From the NCBI RefSeq assembly GCF_021028995.1, contig NZ_JAJJZG010000016.1, positions 1 through 64,000 on the forward strand: 64,000 nt of DNA, written 5' to 3'. Below, one piece after another: positions 35,423 to 48,242 of the stretch. This DNA is from Halobacterium sp. KA-4 (GTDB taxonomy: Archaea; Halobacteriota; Halobacteria; Halobacteriales; Halobacteriaceae). The translations under genes were made by a program, and so were the position numbers. The notes beneath the pieces are model-generated. The model had not been told where the DNA came from and did not search any database. It saw only the letters and a list, made by a program, of their open reading frames with translations. How positions within the stretch are numbered: position 1 is the first letter of the stretch; the number at the start of each line of letters is the position of its first letter.

Positions 35423-35427
35423 TTCAC
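35290..35427 (+). ncRNA. Predicted omega-RNA (element B)
   Basis: Overlaps the tnpB 3' end and reaches the right end at TTCAC. A stable stem forms between AAGCCCCTGCCT and AGGCAGGGG, with a CGCCGAAGGCG inner hairpin. The guide would be read from the bases after 35427, which lie in the 3' end of the HNH gene. The 5' end is estimated. Confidence 0.45.
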
Positions 35428-35882
35428 TTGAGGTCGTAGTTGGTTCCGGGTGTGGCGTTGGTTGTGAAGTTGTCGGGGTCGAAGTTCTCGCGTTCGTGTT
35501 TGAGGTACTTCACGCTCTCTGGGGTGCCTTCTTCCTCACTGAATCGCCGGGTCGCTTCTTCACGCGTGAGACGTGGCCCTTCGTAGTATTCGTGGTGGTA
35601 TTCATTCCAGGCGTGGCGGTGTTCGCTGGGGAGTTGGCGGTGCCACATGCGGTATGGGGGTTTGTCGACGCGATGGATGTGAATATGACAGCTTTGGCAG
35701 AGCGGGATGATGTTCTCGACGCGGTCGTCGGTGTCGTCGCCGTTGACGTGATGGAACGACAGTTTATCCTGTCGGCGCTCGCCAAGGTTTGTTTCGAGCC
35801 ATTCCTCGGGATGTCGTCCACAGACGACACATGCGTCCCCCCAGCGGTCAAACACCGCTTCCTCCAACTCTTCGGACCGCAT
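35424..35882 (-). CDS. HNH endonuclease
   Basis: 152 residues from the ATG at 35882 (the 32-residue upstream extension is not protein-like). A four-Cys zinc site frames the HNH core: Cys18/Cys21 (ACVVCGRHPEEW), His44-His45 (LSFHHVNGDD), Cys62/Cys65 with His68/His70 (LCQSCHIHIH). Its stop codon coincides with the TTCAC end of tnpB element B. The closest relative in the window, 54187-54894, carries an extra C-terminal RRIRF domain that this one lacks. An almost identical C-terminal domain is encoded separately just upstream at 36253-36546. A nicking or homing-type nuclease of mobile DNA is likely. Confidence 0.8.
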   Translation of the reverse strand: MRSEELEEAVFDRWGDACVVCGRHPEEWLETNLGERRQDKLSFHHVNGDDTDDRVENIIPLCQSCHIHIHRVDKPPYRMWHRQLPSEHRHAWNEYHHEYYEGPRLTREEATRRFSEEEGTPESVKYLKHERENFDPDNFTTNATPGTNYDLK

Positions 35883-36252: not shown

Positions 36253-36546
36253 TTAGGGCGTTTGGACTGGTCGCGACCAGTGGTCGACATCGGTGACGGT
36301 ATCTTGACCGACGAGCTGCCAGTCCCGGTTCCGCCAGACTTCTTCAATCCGCTGCCACTCGTCGCTGTTGTTCGACTGAGGGACGAACCGGATGCGACGT
36401 CGCGTCCCAGAGTGATCAGTGAACTCAATGACTTCCTCACAGCGAGTCCCGGGCGTCATCGGCTGCGTGGGTGTCGCGGTGCTCTGTGGCGTGGGACAAC
36501 TGCTCTGGGCGGATCGATCGCCGCTCTTCGTGTTCTCATTGGACAT
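36253..36546 (-). CDS. Small protein with RRIRF domain
   Basis: 97 residues from the ATG at 36546 (54 upstream residues rejected). The N-terminal 30 residues are polar and disordered. The remainder reads VIEFTDHSGTRRRIRFVPQ, IEEVWRNRDWQLVGQDTVTD. The same compact domain ends the HNH protein at 54187-54894 (RRRIRFVERDDGPGWWQ...DPVTDVD) and survives as a fragment at 47543-47675. Strand-rich pattern with conserved RIRF, a W and a terminal VTDVD. No function is known to me. Confidence 0.6.
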   Translation of the reverse strand: MSNENTKSGDRSAQSSCPTPQSTATPTQPMTPGTRCEEVIEFTDHSGTRRRIRFVPQSNNSDEWQRIEEVWRNRDWQLVGQDTVTDVDHWSRPVQTP

Positions 36547-39873: not shown

Positions 39874-41871
39874 TTACGGCGGCTCGTAAGGTGGATACCG
39901 CCACTGGCGAAGGTCGTCAATCATGTAGGCGATCCTGTCGCGATCAAGGTCGAACTCGAGCCCGTAGGGATCAATCGTTCGCAGCCACGTACAGAGCCGG
40001 GGAAAGACTTGGTCAATCTCTAGCGGGTCGGCGTCTGTTGCGACGGTGTACTGATCGAGAAATCGCTCGATGACTTCTCGAGTGAACGATGGCGATCGAT
40101 ACCGGGGGTCGTCGTTCGTAACCCACGCTGGCCGGTGGTGATACTCTTGAAATCCGCGGGCTGTTGGCGTTAAGATGGTTCCATAATACAGCCCGGTTGC
40201 GAGAAATGCGGGGGCAATGGGCGTTTGGAGCGGTGCCCAAGACGCTGCGAGGGCGTCTGCCGTTTGGAACTGCGTGCTGTGGTCGCCGTTGGCGCCACAG
40301 ATGACAAGCTCGTCATTAACGCGGTGACAGGTCGGAAGCGACGCGACGAGCGCCTCGGGTGTCCATGGCTGTGTCCAGTGTGCGAGCTGCTCATTACCGC
40401 CCCATAACTCGAGGGAGCCGTCAGGCGTTAGCCACCACGTAGGAGCGGCAGCCGACCGTGGGTACACCACAGCTGCGCCATTGGCTTTGAGCGGCTGTGA
40501 GGTTGTGTACAGCCGTACTTTCTTTGGTGTTGTGTCGTGAAATGGGTGGGCTAGCAGAGCGGCGACACGATCGGCAGTTTCGTCGGTGTCGGCAACGATG
40601 TACGCGGTCGTCTTTTCACGGGCAGCGGCGCTTACAAGTGCAATGAGATCACCGGCCCCGAGCGTTTCGTCGGTGACGACGAGGACTGGCTGTACGCCTT
40701 TCTCCCGGACAAGTTCGAACGTGGCAGAGGGGTACCAGCGCGGGTCTTGGAGCGTCCCCCGTGTCTGTAACCACGTTATCGCAGCCTGCGTGTGTTCGTT
40801 GTCGGCATCAACGTCGAGGGTTTCGATTGGGTCGACCGACGATGCGATTCGGTCATTCGTCGTCCCGGGGACCGTACCTGGGGCCTCACGAAGGATAGAC
40901 TCGACACTGTATGTGAACGGCTCCCAGCCAGCGCGTGGTGGCCATTGGTCGCGGTCGTAGTAGGCGGGTGCGTGAGTAAGAAACACCGGGAGCGTCTCTG
41001 CGTCGACGGGGAGCCAGGGATCGACGTCGAGCACGTCGTATTCGCGCAGTTGGGATTGGCTTGGCGTTCGTTCTCGTAAGGCATCGAACGCCGCAGGGCT
41101 GCGTGCGAGTCGCCGGCGGATATCCGGCTGGTGGTCCTCGTCGCGCTCGAGTGCACGAATTTTGTCGGTGTCGAGATACAACCGCGGGGTCTCGCGGTCG
41201 TCACCGATCACGGGCGCGTCTGCTGCGGTATTCCACGTCCCTGTAAGCGGCAACCGCCATGACGACGTGATTGCGTCATCGGTGAAATACGTCGCCGGAT
41301 CGATGGTGCCGTCATTGAGTGCGGTGGCATGGTCACTGTCGCTCACCCACTGGCGGTTGGGATCGTAGATTGCTGCCCGAACTGACACCTCTCGATCGGA
41401 GCCAGCGTTCCGGACGAGAATCCGAATGACGTGTGCCAGTCCGTTGTTGATGAGTGTACTGAGATACTGCCGAAGCGCCGTTCGTGGATGGGAGCGATCT
41501 GAATTCCGGGAGGGCTGAGAGTAGGTGATGTCTGCGTCCGGTGTGTTCGGGCCGAGCAGACACGCCGTTAGTGCGGGTGTCGCTCCTAATTTTGTTGCTT
41601 CTACGATCTCAAACCCAATCTGTCGGGGTAACTCTTCTTGGGCGGCCCGGATAAGTGGATAGTTCGCCTTGAGTGTTCGGTCCCCTGCCGCCAGCAGCAA
41701 CTCTTGTGACTGTGCGCCGGTATGAATGGTCGCCTCAACGAGATCATCCGGCTGGCGGGTCGCGGTGTACACTGCTCGGGCGAGATCATCACTCAGTGAT
41801 GTCTTCCGTCGCTCATCGGGAGTGTCGACGCCCGGCCAGCGAAGTCGAAGGAATGTTTGCTGTAGTGACAT
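39874..41871 (-). CDS. Unknown protein, D5-like winged-helix C-terminus (operon partner 2)
   Basis: 665 residues from the ATG at 41871 (a TTG two codons upstream is less likely). No Walker, RuvC, HUH or primase motifs are seen. A central segment, DPWLPVDAETLPVFLTHAP, AYYDRDQW, resembles FWIPPATIGYFTKRYAHYY, EIDPW in the upstream gene product, so the two are distant relatives. Next comes an alpha/beta segment (VLVVTDETLGAGDLIALVSA, ETADRVAALLAHPF) ending in WWLTPDGSLELW. The last 100 residues read TREVIERFLDQYTVATDADP, LEIDQVFPRLCTWLRT, similar to the D5-type winged helix of P4-like primases. Transcribed 21 bp behind 41893-44157. Function unknown. Confidence 0.7.
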   Translation of the reverse strand: MSLQQTFLRLRWPGVDTPDERRKTSLSDDLARAVYTATRQPDDLVEATIHTGAQSQELLLAAGDRTLKANYPLIRAAQEELPRQIGFEIVEATKLGATPALTACLLGPNTPDADITYSQPSRNSDRSHPRTALRQYLSTLINNGLAHVIRILVRNAGSDREVSVRAAIYDPNRQWVSDSDHATALNDGTIDPATYFTDDAITSSWRLPLTGTWNTAADAPVIGDDRETPRLYLDTDKIRALERDEDHQPDIRRRLARSPAAFDALRERTPSQSQLREYDVLDVDPWLPVDAETLPVFLTHAPAYYDRDQWPPRAGWEPFTYSVESILREAPGTVPGTTNDRIASSVDPIETLDVDADNEHTQAAITWLQTRGTLQDPRWYPSATFELVREKGVQPVLVVTDETLGAGDLIALVSAAAREKTTAYIVADTDETADRVAALLAHPFHDTTPKKVRLYTTSQPLKANGAAVVYPRSAAAPTWWLTPDGSLELWGGNEQLAHWTQPWTPEALVASLPTCHRVNDELVICGANGDHSTQFQTADALAASWAPLQTPIAPAFLATGLYYGTILTPTARGFQEYHHRPAWVTNDDPRYRSPSFTREVIERFLDQYTVATDADPLEIDQVFPRLCTWLRTIDPYGLEFDLDRDRIAYMIDDLRQWRYPPYEPP

Positions 41872-41892
41872 ACTCAAAGCTGGTGGAAGTGG

Positions 41893-44157
41893 CTATAGTG
41901 TGAGGTCAGCGTCAGCGTCGATACCAGCGAGATGTGGCGAGACGAGCCCGCGGGGAAACACCCAGGTGTAGCCAACAAGTGCTTTCTTCCCCCCGGACAT
42001 GTCTTTTCGGTCGATCTCATCGGGCAGGCCTTTACTGAACCAGCCCGTGTTCGGGGCGTCTTTACTGGTACACCACCGGTAGAGACCCATCATCGCCGTG
42101 TGACACTTATTAACGGGGAGTTCTGCGTCGGGAGTCTCGGTGAGGAACGCTTCTGTGATGTCCATCCCGAACTCCTCGTACCGGTCCATTTTGCCCCCGG
42201 CGCGCTCCCACTTCGGTGTGGCGTCGTACTCGACGAACTCACCGGTGTCTTTGCTTTTTGCGCCCGTCTCGTGCATGATTGTCACGTACTGGAGATAGCT
42301 AATATCAATCGGGACGTGTGGCGTTGTGACGCGAGTCCATTCCCGTGTGAACGCGATTTCGTTCTCGTAAGTGAGCGTCTCACCGTCACGGGTAGTAACG
42401 ACGTATTTACCGTCTTCTTTCTGTGCAGTCGCACAGCCATGGGTGACCTCGGTGAGATCCGCCTCAGCCGGACAGCGAGTGACGACCTCGCCGTCAATGA
42501 CGTGGACGAGCATGCCATCAGGCGTGAGATACCAGGTTGACTCGGATTTGGCGGTGACGAGCATTTCACCCTCAACTTCGGGAATCGCGTCTCCCTGAAA
42601 CGTTCGTACTCCGTACTCTGTCCGTTCACTGTACGTCGCATAGAGGAGTTCGTAGGCGCGGTCAGCAGCCGATTCGCTTTTGAATACGAGAATGACGTGG
42701 CGGTCCGCAGCTATCGCGCGTTCGACGTTCGTGAGAATGTTCGCTGGCTTGGACTCGTTTTTCCACTCCGGTTCGACGTTGACCACGTCGCTATCGACCT
42801 GTTTTTCGAGGATATTGATGTATCCATTATCCGGATCGAGTTCTTGGTCCGGCAGCGACGCTCCGTCCTGTTCGACACGGTTGATCTCGTCGCCCCGAGC
42901 ACGCGCAAATGTCATGAAATCGTCGCCGAGTGTGAGGTGACTGTCACTTCCATCAGTGGGATGTCTGCGTTCGGCGTCGATGGTTGACTCTGGTGTCTCC
43001 CAGTCGGTCCGGACGTCGATGTCGTGTATCTGGCGTGGCGTAAATGTCGGCGCATCTCGAACCGGAGAGTGTCTCCACGGATCGATCTCGTAGTAGTGTG
43101 CGTACCGTTTCGTGAAGTAGCCGATCGTCGCCGGGGGAATCCAGAACCGGCCGTAGTAGCCGTGGTCTTTTGCCGTTGGCTCCCAGCCAGTTGACCCGTT
43201 AAGCAGTCGTGGAAAATCATTATGGCCGAGAATGATCTCTTTCAACTTCTCGACTTTCAGTCGGTGTTGGAGTTTCGTATCATACCGTTTTCGCATTGCG
43301 TCCCTGATGGAGACGGTGTGGACCGTTTGCCCGTTGATCTGCCGGTCATAGTCGATGTGGAGGTAGTCTTCGATGTTGATGTCGAAATTCGACGTAAGAC
43401 CGGTGGATGTAAACGCCCGCCCGAAATCTCCGGGCGCGCCTTCTTTGACGAGTCGGGCGAGTCCGCGATCACCTTGGTGTGTGTGGTCGCCTGACAGCGT
43501 TGCCAGCCGGGAGGTCATATGGAGCTTTCCGTCACCGGGCTCAGTGATGAGCTGGTGAACGAACGGCTCACGCGCGTGTGTGAGTGCGTCGAAGACTGTT
43601 TCCATCGCATCCGGGTCGACTTTGCCAACGCCGGAAACCTCCTCAGTGTCTTCGTTGACTAACCGGCACGTGGAGGTGGCTCCCCCAGCCGAGATTGGGT
43701 CCAGATTGAAGTCACCAACCTCGATATTGTACACATCGGGGAAGGCCGTATTTACTGTCTCGTACGCTACGTTGAGGATGCTTTCTATAACCTGCTCGTT
43801 GAAGTCGGTAATCTCAGGCTGGATTGCGCGGCCATCGACGAAGTGCGGGTTGATATGGAACGCGTGACATGTGACCGCCGCAACGTCAATATCCGGACAT
43901 GGAATCGGCCGCGGATACGTTAGCGCCTCGACTGGCGCCTCAAACTTCTTTTTGAGCTTCGTTATTGATTCCGCGACTGCATCGCCCGTTTTTTCTGTGA
44001 GTTTATTTTTGTAATCCGGGTCCACTGGCGGTGTTGCGTGGACGGCACCGCGTCTAACGTATCCATCATCGTTTGTGGCGATCCACAAATTGGGGCGCTG
44101 TTCGTGTCGTTTAAATTGCTGTTCGACGGTGTCCAGCGAGAACGTTTGCTGGCTCAT
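41893..44157 (-). CDS. Unknown protein, D5-like winged-helix C-terminus (operon partner 1)
   Basis: 754 residues from the ATG at 44157 (a GTG five codons upstream is possible). The N-terminal half (~1-330) has an alpha/beta look (VFDALTHAREPFVHQLITEP; FGRAFTSTGLTSNFDINIED) that I cannot place. At ~330-380 come GYYGRFWIPPATIGYFTKRY and HYYEIDPW. An alpha/beta segment ends in STWYLTPDGMLVHV, matching WWLTPDGSLELW downstream. The C-terminus (~650-730) reads DITEAFLTETPDAELPVNKC, GLYRWCTSKDAPNTGWFSKG, the spacing of a D5-like winged helix. No nucleotide-binding motif. Divergent from the membrane winged-helix gene at 44399 across a 241-bp promoter region. Confidence 0.7.
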   Translation of the reverse strand: MSQQTFSLDTVEQQFKRHEQRPNLWIATNDDGYVRRGAVHATPPVDPDYKNKLTEKTGDAVAESITKLKKKFEAPVEALTYPRPIPCPDIDVAAVTCHAFHINPHFVDGRAIQPEITDFNEQVIESILNVAYETVNTAFPDVYNIEVGDFNLDPISAGGATSTCRLVNEDTEEVSGVGKVDPDAMETVFDALTHAREPFVHQLITEPGDGKLHMTSRLATLSGDHTHQGDRGLARLVKEGAPGDFGRAFTSTGLTSNFDINIEDYLHIDYDRQINGQTVHTVSIRDAMRKRYDTKLQHRLKVEKLKEIILGHNDFPRLLNGSTGWEPTAKDHGYYGRFWIPPATIGYFTKRYAHYYEIDPWRHSPVRDAPTFTPRQIHDIDVRTDWETPESTIDAERRHPTDGSDSHLTLGDDFMTFARARGDEINRVEQDGASLPDQELDPDNGYINILEKQVDSDVVNVEPEWKNESKPANILTNVERAIAADRHVILVFKSESAADRAYELLYATYSERTEYGVRTFQGDAIPEVEGEMLVTAKSESTWYLTPDGMLVHVIDGEVVTRCPAEADLTEVTHGCATAQKEDGKYVVTTRDGETLTYENEIAFTREWTRVTTPHVPIDISYLQYVTIMHETGAKSKDTGEFVEYDATPKWERAGGKMDRYEEFGMDITEAFLTETPDAELPVNKCHTAMMGLYRWCTSKDAPNTGWFSKGLPDEIDRKDMSGGKKALVGYTWVFPRGLVSPHLAGIDADADLTL

Positions 44158-44297
44158 ACAGACCCCCTCCACTGCGGCAGGTGGGACGGTAGTCGTGCCG
44201 TGGTGTATCTACGACAGGTCTCGTGTTCGCTCATCCTGTACCGATGACTGACGAGGGGGGTATAGAATGAGATTTCTCGAATTCGAGACTCGAATCT

Positions 44298-44372
44298 CCA
44301 AAAGAAATATATATGAGGAAGGAGGACCCCTCTCCAAACTATCAATACTAGCATTTTATGAAGAACAGATTA
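44298..44372. promoter_or_regulatory. AT-rich promoter region for 44399
   Basis: AAAAGAAATATATATG (44299-44314) and GATTATAAC (44364-44372) are archaeal TATA-like. The second is ~30 bp before the ATG at 44399, consistent with a leaderless transcript. The divergent gene starting at 44157 must have its own promoter in the same gap. Confidence 0.4.
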
Positions 44373-44398
44373 TAACATTCGATGCAATCGAACTCACC

Positions 44399-45154
44399 AT
44401 GAGTGCCGCCACGGAGACGAATCGAGACCAAGAGAACGGTCCTTCGACTGTCAAGGCGATTCAAGATGCGATCAATACTGATGATCGCATCGGCTCCGAT
44501 CAGCAACCGATCTCCACAATGAAACCGCGTGCACGAGAAATCATTAAAATCATCGGCACTCGGGGAGACCACCGCAGTCGGGGGACGGTAGATCAGGAGT
44601 CCACGGGAATTAGTGCCCCGGAGTTAGCTGAACGTGAGGAGTTCGGCGTTGGGGTCGACACGCTGCGTAATGACCTGCGTACACTCGTCAAGTGTAGCTA
44701 TCTCAATGCCGATGAGTCTGAACGACCCTACCGGTATACGATCGCTGACTCTTGGATTACTCCAGCCACGACTGACGCAGTTACCGATGGATCTAGTACC
44801 TCTTCGCAGGGCTCGGCTATCGACGAGAGGATATCGACCCACGAAACTGAGTACGCAGAGCCGAGTAAACCAATCAAAAACTATCAGCGGGTATCTATGC
44901 TGGTATCGGCGGCTCAAGCGAATCTCACACCCATCAAGCACACCGTAGCCTCGATTTTTGGAATCGGTGGATGCGTGGTAGGGCTGTTTGGGGTACTTCT
45001 CTGGGTCAGTGGCCTGTATCTCAGCCCGCATCTTGTTGCTGCTGGCGACTCCAGCATCCAAGCAGGTCTGGCACTTCTCTTCGGGTGGTTTTGGATACAT
45101 TTCGTTGGACTGGTGAATGCTATGTCGGACGATGAGGAAGCCACGCTATCCTGA
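44399..45154 (+). CDS. Winged-helix protein with C-terminal two-helix membrane anchor (pair 1)
   Basis: 251 residues from the ATG at 44399. A longer frame from 44267 would read through the promoter. Residues ~40-125 look like a helix-turn-helix (AREIIKIIGTR...ISAPELAEREEFGVGVDTLR, NDLRTLVKCSYLNADES). A polar linker precedes two hydrophobic helices (~195-215 and ~222-245: GIGGCVVGLFGVLLWVSGLY and AGLALLFGWFWIHFVGLV). A DNA-binding domain tethered to the membrane is the direct reading. It stands head-to-head with 41893-44157. The same design recurs at 46916-47542 beside 45731-46705. Confidence 0.7.
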   Translation: MSAATETNRDQENGPSTVKAIQDAINTDDRIGSDQQPISTMKPRAREIIKIIGTRGDHRSRGTVDQESTGISAPELAEREEFGVGVDTLRNDLRTLVKCSYLNADESERPYRYTIADSWITPATTDAVTDGSSTSSQGSAIDERISTHETEYAEPSKPIKNYQRVSMLVSAAQANLTPIKHTVASIFGIGGCVVGLFGVLLWVSGLYLSPHLVAAGDSSIQAGLALLFGWFWIHFVGLVNAMSDDEEATLS

Positions 45155-45745
45155 TTCACCGAAGAACTCCCGCTAATCACGGCGAGCGATAACACCCCAC
45201 AGAATGGGAGTGACAGCGCCGCGGCCCCACCAAACAGAGCTACCCACGGTGAACGCCTCGGGGTCAAGCCCCGAGGCACTCGGCCTGCTCCGCCTGTAGA
45301 TGGCGCTCAGAGGGGCTGGGTTGCAACCCACTATTCTGGGAGGGGTTGGTGGTTTGCAGTCTCTGTGCTATCCGACCGACAATTCTAAGTCATTATCACA
45401 GTAATCATTATGTAGAGTATGACATCCTCCGCGCCGTGAACGGCGGAATTCTCTCCTCGAAGAAAGATGGAACGAGACAGGCCGGCAAAATCGTGTCCTG
45501 CTTCGTCACGCGTTCCTCGTCTTCGTACTCGCGTCTATACGGCGCTCGTTGCGGAAGGCGGCTCCGTGCTACCATCAGACGCTGACTACCGCGGCGATGT
45601 CGTCTGGGGATCCCATCTGTTCAGTTAATCGAGCAGATTTTGTACTCGATTTTTTAATCCTCCTCCACGTGAATGCGGAGGGAGATGTCAAGTGTCGGTA
45701 GAACGAGAGTCCACCGACAAGCCCACCCCTTTACAGGCGGGTAGC
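45155..45745. repeat. Cluster of solo insertion-element ends
   Basis: There are three parts. The first is GTGAACG plus hairpin CTCGGGGTCAAGCCCCGAG (45257-45275), followed by the CACTCGGCCTG...CGCCTGTAGAT string also seen at 3785. The second is CATCCTCCGCGCCGTGAACG, GCGGAATTCTCTCCTCG (45422-45462), an end like those near 8340 and 38340. The third is GGTAGAACGAGAGTCCACCG (45694) with ACAAGCCCACCCCTTTACAG, a right end like 39405. No intact gene lies between. Confidence 0.5.
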
Positions 45746-46705
45746 TGACGTGCGGCGGTTCACGACGGGGTTCCACCGCCAGACGCGATTACACAGCACT
45801 CCCGAGTCTCCAGCCTCACCATCAGCGATGCGCTTGATGTTGCCGTGGTTCTCAAGCTGTCGGCCGAACGTTGATTGACTGTCGGGCTTGCCTGCGAAGC
45901 CAGCTTGCCATGCCTGATATCGTGCGAACACATCCGCGATCGGCAGATGTTCACCTTCAGACTGGATTGTTGTCTGCTTTAGGAACGTCGCGAGTGCCTC
46001 CGTGCTCTGGTTCTTGTGTGGTTGCTTTCGGTACGTCGCCAGATCCTTGCCGTTGTCCGATTTTGGATAGTGGATGGTGACATCACTCCCAAAGGTGATC
46101 CTATCCGGCTGGAGCCAATCCCAGACCGTCACGTACTCGTCGTCGAGCGCGGCCGTCGTGGCAGTCCGTTCGAGTTCTTCACCAGCGTCGTCTTCGATAA
46201 CCCAGCCATTCTCATCACCGTCTTCTTGGCGGGCGGTAAACACGCCAGCCGGCAGATCCGTGAACTGCGCTTGCTCACTACGGTTACTGAACGGCACTAG
46301 GACGGTGTCATCTTCCCACGCGAGCTCAGTTCCCTCGCCGGCGACGAACTCGACCTTGGGCTGGGACTTGCTCGACTCTTGGACGACGCAACCATCACTC
46401 GGCGTCTGCAGTGGCTTCACGGAGCGGTATGGCACCGCACCCCGTGGCGTCTGTTCTTTGACCGGACATGAGACGATGTCATCGATCATCGCCGCACTTT
46501 GCTTTGACGGCGCGAACACGCGTGCGTGCCCTGTGTTCTGGCACACTGTCATCAGTTTCCTGCCGAGCGTCGCCGGCCGGTACTGATTCCCAGTCACCAC
46601 CACATGCGACTCCGGGCCCGTCACGAACTCACCCCCATTTTCGTCGTGGGACGCGTCAGTTGTACTCGATACCACATCGCGATGCCGATTTATGCGACCG
46701 GACAT
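45731..46705 (-). CDS. Unknown protein with D5-like winged-helix C-terminus (pair 2)
   Basis: 324 residues from the ATG at 46705. An alpha/beta segment at ~30-130 (VVVTGNQYRPATLGRKLMTV, ARVFAPSKQSAAMIDDIV) is followed by an acidic beta region. The C-terminal ~90 residues read STEALATFLKQTTIQSEGEH, LPIADVFARYQAWQAGFAGK, STFGRQLENHGNIKRI. This spacing (long helix, acidic loop, LPxxxVFxxYQxW, FGRxLxxxGxxKR) is that of the D5/P4-primase winged helix. The same tail ends the two larger proteins 39874 and 41893. There is no primase or helicase core. The stop codon lies inside the TTTACAGG of an insertion-element end, so the last residues may be foreign. Confidence 0.7.
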   Translation of the reverse strand: MSGRINRHRDVVSSTTDASHDENGGEFVTGPESHVVVTGNQYRPATLGRKLMTVCQNTGHARVFAPSKQSAAMIDDIVSCPVKEQTPRGAVPYRSVKPLQTPSDGCVVQESSKSQPKVEFVAGEGTELAWEDDTVLVPFSNRSEQAQFTDLPAGVFTARQEDGDENGWVIEDDAGEELERTATTAALDDEYVTVWDWLQPDRITFGSDVTIHYPKSDNGKDLATYRKQPHKNQSTEALATFLKQTTIQSEGEHLPIADVFARYQAWQAGFAGKPDSQSTFGRQLENHGNIKRIADGEAGDSGVLCNRVWRWNPVVNRRTSATRL

Positions 46706-46915
46706 TGCGAGTGGGGCTTCCGGGGGGAGGGAGGTAGCCCTCGTGGAGATTTGGCAGCCCCAAACCACCAACACATTCATAATGTGAGCGAGCGCCGGAC
46801 ATCGAGGTATATTCGGGTGATTTCGAGGGCATTGGGGCGGCTAGTCTGAATACTCGAGATGCAAAGTATAATCCAGCATAAGTACTAAGTGAAGAACGGT
46901 CAATAGTCAGGTAGG

Positions 46916-47542
46916 ATGAACCCGAAGGACGAGATGTTCAAGTCCCTCCCCTCAAATATACAAGAGACGCTTCGGGCTATCGATGACTTTGAGAAGCAAA
47001 TGGCCCTTGCAGAAGTCATCTACCATATCCTTCCTGGACCTGATAGACAACTGGATAAGGTATGTACCGCCACCGAAGTGCATGAGGTTGTACCTGGGAC
47101 AAAACAGACTGCGAGAAACCACCTGAATGACTTAGTCGACCTAAACATCCTTGAGGATACCAACCCAGAACAGAAAACATTCCACGTCCACCCCCACATT
47201 CAGACTGATCGAAACGTCTCCAATCGTTCTAATACCCTCGTCCACGATGGCGGAAGCATCCACGAACAGCTACCTGACTTCGACAACCCACTGTTTAACC
47301 CCGCAGACGGCAATCCAATCAAACCCACTATCGCAACCATCTTCCTCCTCATCTTCTCTGCGCCTACCGCGACCATCACGACCAGCCTCGGCGCAGTAGA
47401 CCCCTCAAGCGCACTCATCGCCGGTCTCCTCCTCACCAGCACCTGGCTCACCTACGAACTCGCGAAAATCCCCACCGAGTACCCACGACACACCGCCCAC
47501 GAGCTTCACTCCCGACTCCAACGACTCAACCTCACCCCCTAG
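46916..47542 (+). CDS. Winged-helix protein with C-terminal two-helix membrane anchor (pair 2)
   Basis: 208 residues. Residues ~15-100 form a winged-helix-like unit (FEKQMALAEVIYHILPG, TATEVHEVVPGTKQTARNHL, NDLVDLNILED). After a polar stretch two membrane helices occupy ~140-157 and ~165-182 (IATIFLLIFSAPTATITTSL; LIAGLLLTSTWLTYELA). Design and orientation mirror 44399-45154: it is divergent from a D5-tail protein across a 210-bp gap that holds TATA-like AAGTATAATC (~46864). Sequence similarity to its counterpart is weak, so convergence of architecture rather than recent duplication is possible. Confidence 0.7.
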   Translation: MNPKDEMFKSLPSNIQETLRAIDDFEKQMALAEVIYHILPGPDRQLDKVCTATEVHEVVPGTKQTARNHLNDLVDLNILEDTNPEQKTFHVHPHIQTDRNVSNRSNTLVHDGGSIHEQLPDFDNPLFNPADGNPIKPTIATIFLLIFSAPTATITTSLGAVDPSSALIAGLLLTSTWLTYELAKIPTEYPRHTAHELHSRLQRLNLTP

Positions 47543-47683: not shown

Positions 47684-47968
47684 TCAGTCGTTATCAGCTG
47701 TGTATGCGCCGCCACGACGTTTGATTCGAGCGATGACGAGTCGCTGTTCGTCTTGCCGGAATGTCGCGGAGAGACGGAATCCGCCGACTCGAATTTTCTT
47801 GTGCGGGCTGTTCTGGAGTGGTTCGCCGTAGTCCGGTGGGTCACGCCACGGGGAGGTGATGATTTCATCGAGCTTGTCGAGGATTCGATCTTGTTCGGTG
47901 GGGGACAGCGAGTCAAGATCGGTTTGGGCCGTCGAAGAGAGTTCCCACGTCCACTCCTCGTCACTCAT
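47684..47968 (-). CDS. RelE/ParE-family toxin
   Basis: 94 residues: WTWELSSTAQTDLDSLSPTE, QDRILDKLDEIITSPWRDPP, then KKIRVGGFRLSATFRQDEQR, LVIARIKRRGGAY. The pattern L-x-x-x-A-x-x-D-L-x-x-L, with the R-V-G-x-x-R-L strand and the late I-K-R-R-G-x-x-Y, is that of RelE/ParE toxins (RelE cuts mRNA on the ribosome; ParE targets gyrase). The antitoxin gene upstream overlaps by 8 bp. The downstream edge meets the RRIRF fragment. Appears intact. Confidence 0.8.
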   Translation of the reverse strand: MSDEEWTWELSSTAQTDLDSLSPTEQDRILDKLDEIITSPWRDPPDYGEPLQNSPHKKIRVGGFRLSATFRQDEQRLVIARIKRRGGAYTADND

Positions 47969-48242
47969 CGCTTATGCCGAACGTCTCGCGCGCTTGCTCG
48001 GCGTCCATCGTCGTTCCCTCACGGGCGTCCGCCTCAGCGGCCAGCAGTGCGATCAGCTCGTCGCGGTCGAACGTCGGGTTCTCGACAGCGTCGCGGAGCG
48101 TGTACCGAATGAACTCGCTTCGACTGTTGAACCCACGACCTTGCCACGCCTCGTCGATTTCCTCGAGGAACGACTGCGTGGCCTTGAAATTCACCGTGAC
48201 AATCTCGTCCTCCTCGCCTCCTCCCGTGGTTGCTTCAGACAT
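47961..48242 (-). CDS. Ribbon-helix-helix antitoxin of RelE-like toxin
   Basis: 93 residues from the ATG at 48242 (34 upstream residues rejected as non-coding). EIVTVNFKATQSFLEEIDEA, RGFNSRSEFIRYTLRDAVEN is a canonical ribbon-helix-helix DNA-binding head. The tail (ELIALLAAEADAREGTTMD, ARETFGI) should bind the toxin encoded downstream with an 8-bp overlap. Autoregulation is likely through the palindrome at 48257-48269. Confidence 0.75.
   Translation of the reverse strand: MSEATTGGGEEDEIVTVNFKATQSFLEEIDEAWQGRGFNSRSEFIRYTLRDAVENPTFDRDELIALLAAEADAREGTTMDAEQARETFGISDE

Follow-up and report, generated by a model that had tools for sequence, protein, structure and literature searches.

Motorless relatives of conjugative coupling proteins in haloarchaea, divergently paired with membrane proteins: a possible role in guarding or processing DNA at the membrane

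The window analysed here covers the opening 64 kb of an 82.9-kb haloarchaeal contig (G000:C7) and contains a gene set with a possible part in protecting or processing DNA at the membrane; its main divergent pair is a member of a module conserved among haloarchaea. Two of its products, A and B, look like conjugative coupling proteins without a motor, since VirD4-like ATPases share their nuclease-plus-tail half, and they are encoded head-to-head with a membrane protein, M1; a shorter relative, C, faces a second such protein, M2. The anatomy of the set is well supported, and its function we infer.

Gene layout and domain composition of A, B and C

The five genes are arranged as two divergent pairs, as the first-pass annotation had claimed, and all of them are present. 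They and the features discussed below are as follows.

39874-41871, minus strand: B, 665 aa, full-length paralogue of A in which the nuclease site is lost
41893-44157, minus strand: A, 754 aa, predicted VirB4-type N-terminal domain, PD-(D/E)XK-like core, beta domain and winged helix
41953-42189, minus strand: A residues 657-735, predicted RFX/D5-type winged helix
42622-42957, minus strand: A residues 401-512, apparent VRR-NUC-like PD-(D/E)XK core
43093-44088, minus strand: A residues 24-355, predicted VirB4/TrwK N-terminal-domain-like fold, EccE-like too
44275-44295, no strand: inverted repeats between A and M1, candidate operator
44399-45154, plus strand: M1, 251 aa, N-terminal winged-helix-like unit and C-terminal transmembrane (TM) hairpin, divergent to A
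45731-46780, minus strand: C, paralogue lacking the N-terminal domain, with an apparently dead nuclease core, beta domain and winged helix
46916-47542, plus strand: M2, 208 aa, helix-turn-helix (HTH) and C-terminal hydrophobic pair, divergent to C

None of the five proteins (A, B, C, M1 and M2) matches Pfam above the cut-off, and A and B have no match in NCBIfam or PADLOC either. C measures 349 aa when read from 46780 and about 323 aa from the next ATG; coding signal alone places its start at 46489, and homology reaches further upstream.

By phmmer and by profile comparison alike (hhalign E 5e-59 over 626 columns), the paralogy of A and B extends along almost the entire length of the two proteins, and their tails compared alone give 98 % probability. 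C matches positions 447-706 of the A profile (E 3.1e-18). This paralogy establishes that the common ending noticed in the three proteins by the first-pass annotation is real, and on these comparisons C is a shortened member of the family, with a seemingly dead nuclease core plus the tail.

The core of A is apparently of the VRR-NUC-like PD-(D/E)XK type, with its DNA-cutting site intact. When a profile of the core was compared with all PDB chains, the best sequence match (E 0.0033, 76 positions) was to 4qbn, which we take to be a VRR-NUC-type PD-(D/E)XK nuclease, and the PD and ExK columns of 4qbn line up with the PD and ExE of A. The order of helix, PD, E-x-(K/E), helix and strand is the same in both, and the predicted secondary structure of the core agrees with the alpha-beta-beta-beta-alpha-beta order of PD-(D/E)XK enzymes. 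The core of A differs from VRR-NUC nucleases in having E-x-E for E-x-K, and in an extra invariant His and Asn. PD and ExE are invariant, and the replacement of the usual catalytic Lys by Glu may mean that A does not cleave; BamHI, however, uses an E-x-E site, so that this change need not abolish catalysis. Residues H407, D437, E462, E464 and N477 are identical in 35 of 35 A rows and in 39 of 39 VirD4-type rows, counts that include duplicate records of the same genomes, whereas in every B member examined H407 is missing, D437 has given way to H, Q or W, and another residue stands in place of N477. The strict retention of these residues in A and their loss in B point to catalysis in A. Iterated profiles of the core unite A, the VirD4-like proteins, B and the product of a small third gene (T) found in some operons. 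The core is poorly modelled within the full structure prediction of A (low pLDDT at 420-466), and a dedicated model of low confidence (mean pLDDT 61) gave no fold match at Z 5 or above.

The two ends of A are better served by the AlphaFold2 model (mean pLDDT 67.8, moderate confidence), which was compared with known folds using VIA-align. Residues 24-355 are predicted to form a VirB4-type N-terminal domain: they match TrwK/VirB4 at Z 10.1-10.3 over 227-247 residues (7o42, Z 10.2, 227 residues, 4.1 Å; 8rtd, Z 10.3) and the ESX-3 chain 6umm_A at Z 10.2, all well above unrelated rows. The matched 6umm chains are presumably of the EccE type of type VII systems. In contrast to VirB4, A has no P-loop after this domain. 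By sequence the link to the VirB4 N-terminal domain is weak and only suggestive; no direct link to haloarchaeal VirB4 was found by sequence profile, and against long VirD4-like proteins (about 1450 aa) the match, to their N-terminal extension, is weak and colinear (hhalign 13 %, E 0.002).

At the other end, residues 657-735 are predicted to fold as an RFX-type winged helix (1dp7, Z 8.1; 8zjr, Z 8.0). The first-pass annotation had proposed that the large proteins keep the D5-type winged helix of P4-like primase-helicases without the helicase or primase. The winged helix stands, and so does the absence of the enzymes, since no SF3 helicase or primase domain was found in the large proteins by Pfam or NCBIfam, and the Walker A motif [AG]x4GK[ST] is present in none of 44 A/B proteins nor in C (it is seen in three of three VirD4 relatives checked). 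The D5 assignment fares less well: Pox_D5 matches C only below the cut-off (E 0.018-0.032), as do all matches of Pox_D5 and P4-primase C-terminal profiles (including TIGR01613) to C or the coupling ATPases. Descent of the tail from a primase-helicase is not supported either, the closest full relatives being VirD4-like conjugative coupling ATPases, and the D5-tail reading had missed both the predicted VirB4-type N-terminal domain and the PD-(D/E)XK-like core.

The same C-terminal half in conjugative coupling ATPases

VirD4/TraD-like ATPases of 1000-1680 aa, encoded by haloarchaeal conjugative elements, end in the core-plus-tail half of A. An example is a protein of Natrinema pellirubrum (NC_019967), annotated as a 'type IV secretory system conjugative DNA transfer family protein', that has the same core, invariant residues, beta domain and winged-helix tail. 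The genes for these long proteins, which are frequent on plasmids, have as neighbours VirB4 and a primase-like gene of the NrS-1 type; in a second, shorter group (about 640-750 aa) the order is again ATPase, then nuclease. The A profile finds matches in 151 of 391 genomes, mostly to this module of VirD4-like ATPases. A and B differ from VirD4/TraD in that they lack an ATPase domain, occur as pairs of an active and an inactive member (as judged from their sites), have no VirB4 alongside and are paired with M. With known folds and a shared C-terminal half, the A/B module is best regarded as a motorless derivative of the coupling-type proteins of type IV secretion systems (T4SS), and there is a fair chance that it is a new kind of system.

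No relaxase has been recognized in archaeal conjugation (PMC9905601), and the nuclease core fused to archaeal coupling ATPases is a candidate relaxase substitute. Fused, together with a DNA-binding tail, to the coupling ATPases of many haloarchaeal genomes, this core is a concrete candidate that can be tested. A, B and C might alternatively be read as a relaxosome-like or accessory set that nicks a chromosomal or element origin or hands it over to a T4SS in trans, with M as the membrane dock, and both the half shared with VirD4-like ATPases and the VirB4-type N-terminal domain would suit such a role, as would the absence of recognizable relaxases from archaea (PMC9905601). We consider it unlikely, if still worth attention: neither a VirB4-like nor a VirD4 ATPase gene was seen in the flanks of the A/B loci, tRNA genes are absent there too, and a clear nuclease-bearing coupling ATPase occurs in only three of the 23 A genomes (G000, G166 and G345). 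A and B thus do not depend on one, and the co-occurrence is too low for an accessory of a resident T4SS.

The core with its conserved H, PD, ExE and N is found at the C-terminus of VirD4-like ATPases at L060:6933-10010, L065:7442-11809, L083:6518-8437, L093:6267-9320 and many other places, and the winged-helix tail occurs additionally in VirD4-like ATPases of 1000 aa or more. A protein of 320-395 aa is encoded just before the short VirD4 (L059:4448-5635, L061:4022-5155 and L083:8434-9411) and shares homology with the extension that precedes the rest of the long VirD4 proteins of L065, L064 and L066 at their N-termini (hhalign 96.5 %, E 1e-9), which indicates gene fusion or fission.

The divergent membrane partners

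In M1 two TM helices begin towards the C-terminus, at residues 183 and 224, whereas in M2 only the helix at 138 is clear and a second, weaker one was read by eye. The first-pass annotation had given both proteins an N-terminal HTH-like unit and a C-terminal pair of membrane helices; the pair is thus plain in M1 and partly so in M2. The HTH match of M2 is weak: M2 matches HTH_20 below the cut-off (E 0.0015), and M1 itself has no Pfam match, its orthologue at L033 matching HTH_DeoR above the curated cut-off (E 2e-4).

The association of such proteins with the A family is not peculiar to the window. Of 223 genes in the window and related loci that encode proteins of 150-360 aa, with TM helices called by hydropathy window, 13 specify two TM helices and no more, both lying in the C-terminal half, and every one of the 13 is the head-to-head partner of an A/B/T operon or of a tail gene. 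A membrane winged-helix gene is linked in this way in several genera, and we found no description of a system with this layout in the literature, in agreement with the first-pass annotation. In Natrialba sp. SSL1 (L044 = L078) a second divergent pair, of a 204-aa tail protein and a 341-aa protein with a winged HTH (wHTH) and two TM helices, adjoins the main operon and mirrors C:M2 beside A/B:M1.

The M proteins fall into at least three sequence families (the window type, that of L044 and L046-L050, and that of L039 and L040) that have in common only a short wHTH stretch (m18-m63, 83 %, E 9e-6), from which it appears that M may be replaced rather than inherited. A common origin of these families was considered and set aside, there being no detectable homology beyond that stretch. 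M also changes faster than its partners, with 31-55 % identity between window-type families where A and B have 61-75 %. The M position is taken by a different, soluble protein in three loci and, on a reading by eye, by a small VapBC-like pair in the group of L038, L042 and L071.

Inverted repeats lie near the middle of the A-M1 intergenic region (44275-44295) and are kept in L033 and L034, and at the same aligned place between A and M1 L035 has a different sequence that is again palindromic. Each repeat by itself mostly stays within chance expectation (the L035 palindrome was reached by 8 of 300 shuffles), although the exchange of one palindrome for another would fit a candidate operator read by a changing wHTH. 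An operator shared by the A-M1 and C-M2 regions is unconvincing, with only one 10-mer in common.

A divergent promoter with palindromes and two wHTH-bearing partners raise the possibility that the set is a membrane-linked transcription regulator, in which the tails and M bind DNA, the core is a mere binding fold (ExE rather than ExK) and the output is gene control. Loss of the catalytic site in B and C would agree with this; the strictness of H, D, E, E and N in A, set against their loss in B, argues for catalysis in A, and we regard a purely regulatory role as improbable.

Distribution and possible role

Full-length A is present in about 23 of 391 haloarchaeal genomes, several of them with two copies, and none was found outside the class among the sampled genomes of the phylum. 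Tandems of A and B in the same direction occupy about 27 loci, essentially every A locus with intact flanks; the B-type neighbour is full-size in 24 of these and about 310-340 aa in three (L052, L054 and L067), and one further A locus (L069) has a broken one. The gene T is part of the operons at L044, L045, L048, L049 and L051, and a lone nuclease-like gene is added to those at L039 and L040. The A protein of the window is 74.5 % identical to a copy from another family (G256) and 69 % identical to one from the same genus (G013), a relationship that points to horizontal transfer between families. Profiles of A, B and the C-terminal module would give names to many 'hypothetical proteins' in haloarchaeal islands.

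The first-pass annotation had described the set as plasmid-borne, which is not borne out, as no plasmid match was found for A, B or C and many A/B copies are on Mb-sized contigs. Its suggestion that D5-like tails and a membrane regulator serve in plasmid replication control, DNA anchoring or segregation could call on the weak relation of the tail to D5/P4-primase C-termini and on the membrane wHTH partner. The A/B/C tail, however, is not attached to a primase or SF3 helicase as it is in Pox_D5 and P4 proteins, A has neither a plasmid nor a viral match, and the nuclease core is left unexplained; we think this very improbable, and a plasmid replication system as such was rejected, there being no plasmid matches for A, B and C and no replication domains. 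Two origins were likewise considered and dropped. A viral one found no IMG/VR match for A or the coupling ATPases and none for C in phage records (collection searches with A used the Halorubrum/Natrialba/Halobiforma subset of a 21-row alignment), and tRNA-targeted integration found no tRNA gene in 28 loci.

Some copies are broken: A of L034 has an in-frame stop, L054 and L069 are split or truncated, and L053 and L055 hold orphan tails. These might be taken to show that the whole set consists of decaying relics of conjugative elements without present function, yet most A-B pairs are intact and the active-site residues are invariant across 20-75 % identity, so that we give this little credence. 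The A gene of G286 (L034:7815-10070) is divided by its in-frame TGA into 541 and 203 aa, and is either a broken copy or a sequencing error.

The reading that we prefer, tentatively and as a good possibility, is that M anchors an A/B complex at the membrane and that A cuts foreign or transferring DNA bound by the tails. In the R388 secretion system the VirB4 dimer contact is made through the N-terminal domains, and the two-TM protein VirB3 wraps the VirB4 N-terminal domain (PMC9259494). By analogy with these, we propose that A and B would associate through their VirB4-type N-terminal domains, and that the TM hairpin of M would take the role of VirB3 and hold the complex at the cytoplasmic membrane. 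Small two-TM partners of VirB4-type systems include both VirB3 of T4SS (PMC9259494; compared with M by description) and CedA1/CedA2 of the crenarchaeal Ced system (PMC9905601), although M is unlike these in having a DNA-binding wHTH and in being divergently encoded. The winged-helix tails and the wHTH of M would bind DNA, the PD-(D/E)XK core of A would cut it, and B, as a subunit without catalytic activity, would serve in structure or recognition; the shared divergent promoter may in addition be repressed by M or a tail protein. The likeliest use would be in conflict with mobile DNA at the membrane, by destroying or blocking incoming or transferring DNA, and the neighbours of the A/B loci (which include SoFic, Mrr-type nuclease, ParE/RHH and TnpB-like genes), the patchy spread and the fast change of M would all fit it. 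Membership of a known anti-phage defence family was looked for and rejected: PADLOC-DB 2.0 has no match for A, B, C or M1, and M2 gives only weak matches (Csa3, AbiEii and SoFic; E 4e-4 to 0.009).

Taken at its fullest, the preferred reading would describe a new archaeal system, a membrane-tethered heteromeric nuclease built from motorless conjugation parts, with an active/inactive pair and a fast-changing M, that excludes foreign DNA, together with a relaxase-replacing nuclease in the parent coupling proteins; this larger claim we put forward with some doubt. The motorless pairs would then be another case of archaea domesticating conjugation parts, after crenarchaeal Ced/Ted DNA import, in this case perhaps to form a barrier against foreign DNA at the membrane.

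Several smaller features recur around these loci. A gene for an HNH-domain protein and one for a small protein (about 68 aa) form a recurrent pair near A/B loci (window 35424-35882 and 36253-36459; L035:16428-17074; L043:5076-6151; L045:906-1465). A repeated cassette at L033:1126-4839 and L034:2170-5931, also near A/B loci, encodes a protein of 939-953 aa, one of 85 aa and an Mrr-type nuclease (Mrr_cat, E 1.5e-7). The same RHH/ParE toxin-antitoxin pair is found beside C:M2 (window 47684-48242) and at L055:4661-5210 (L055 = L082), near an orphan C-like tail gene of Halorubrum aquaticum. Finally, the hairpin CGGGGTCAAGCCCCG occurs nine times with up to 2 mismatches, against 0.2 expected, at sites that include window 45259-45273 (between M1 and C), 3194, 3768, 4906, 32225 and 58493, and perhaps represents the ends of IS200/IS605-type elements or a repeated terminator.
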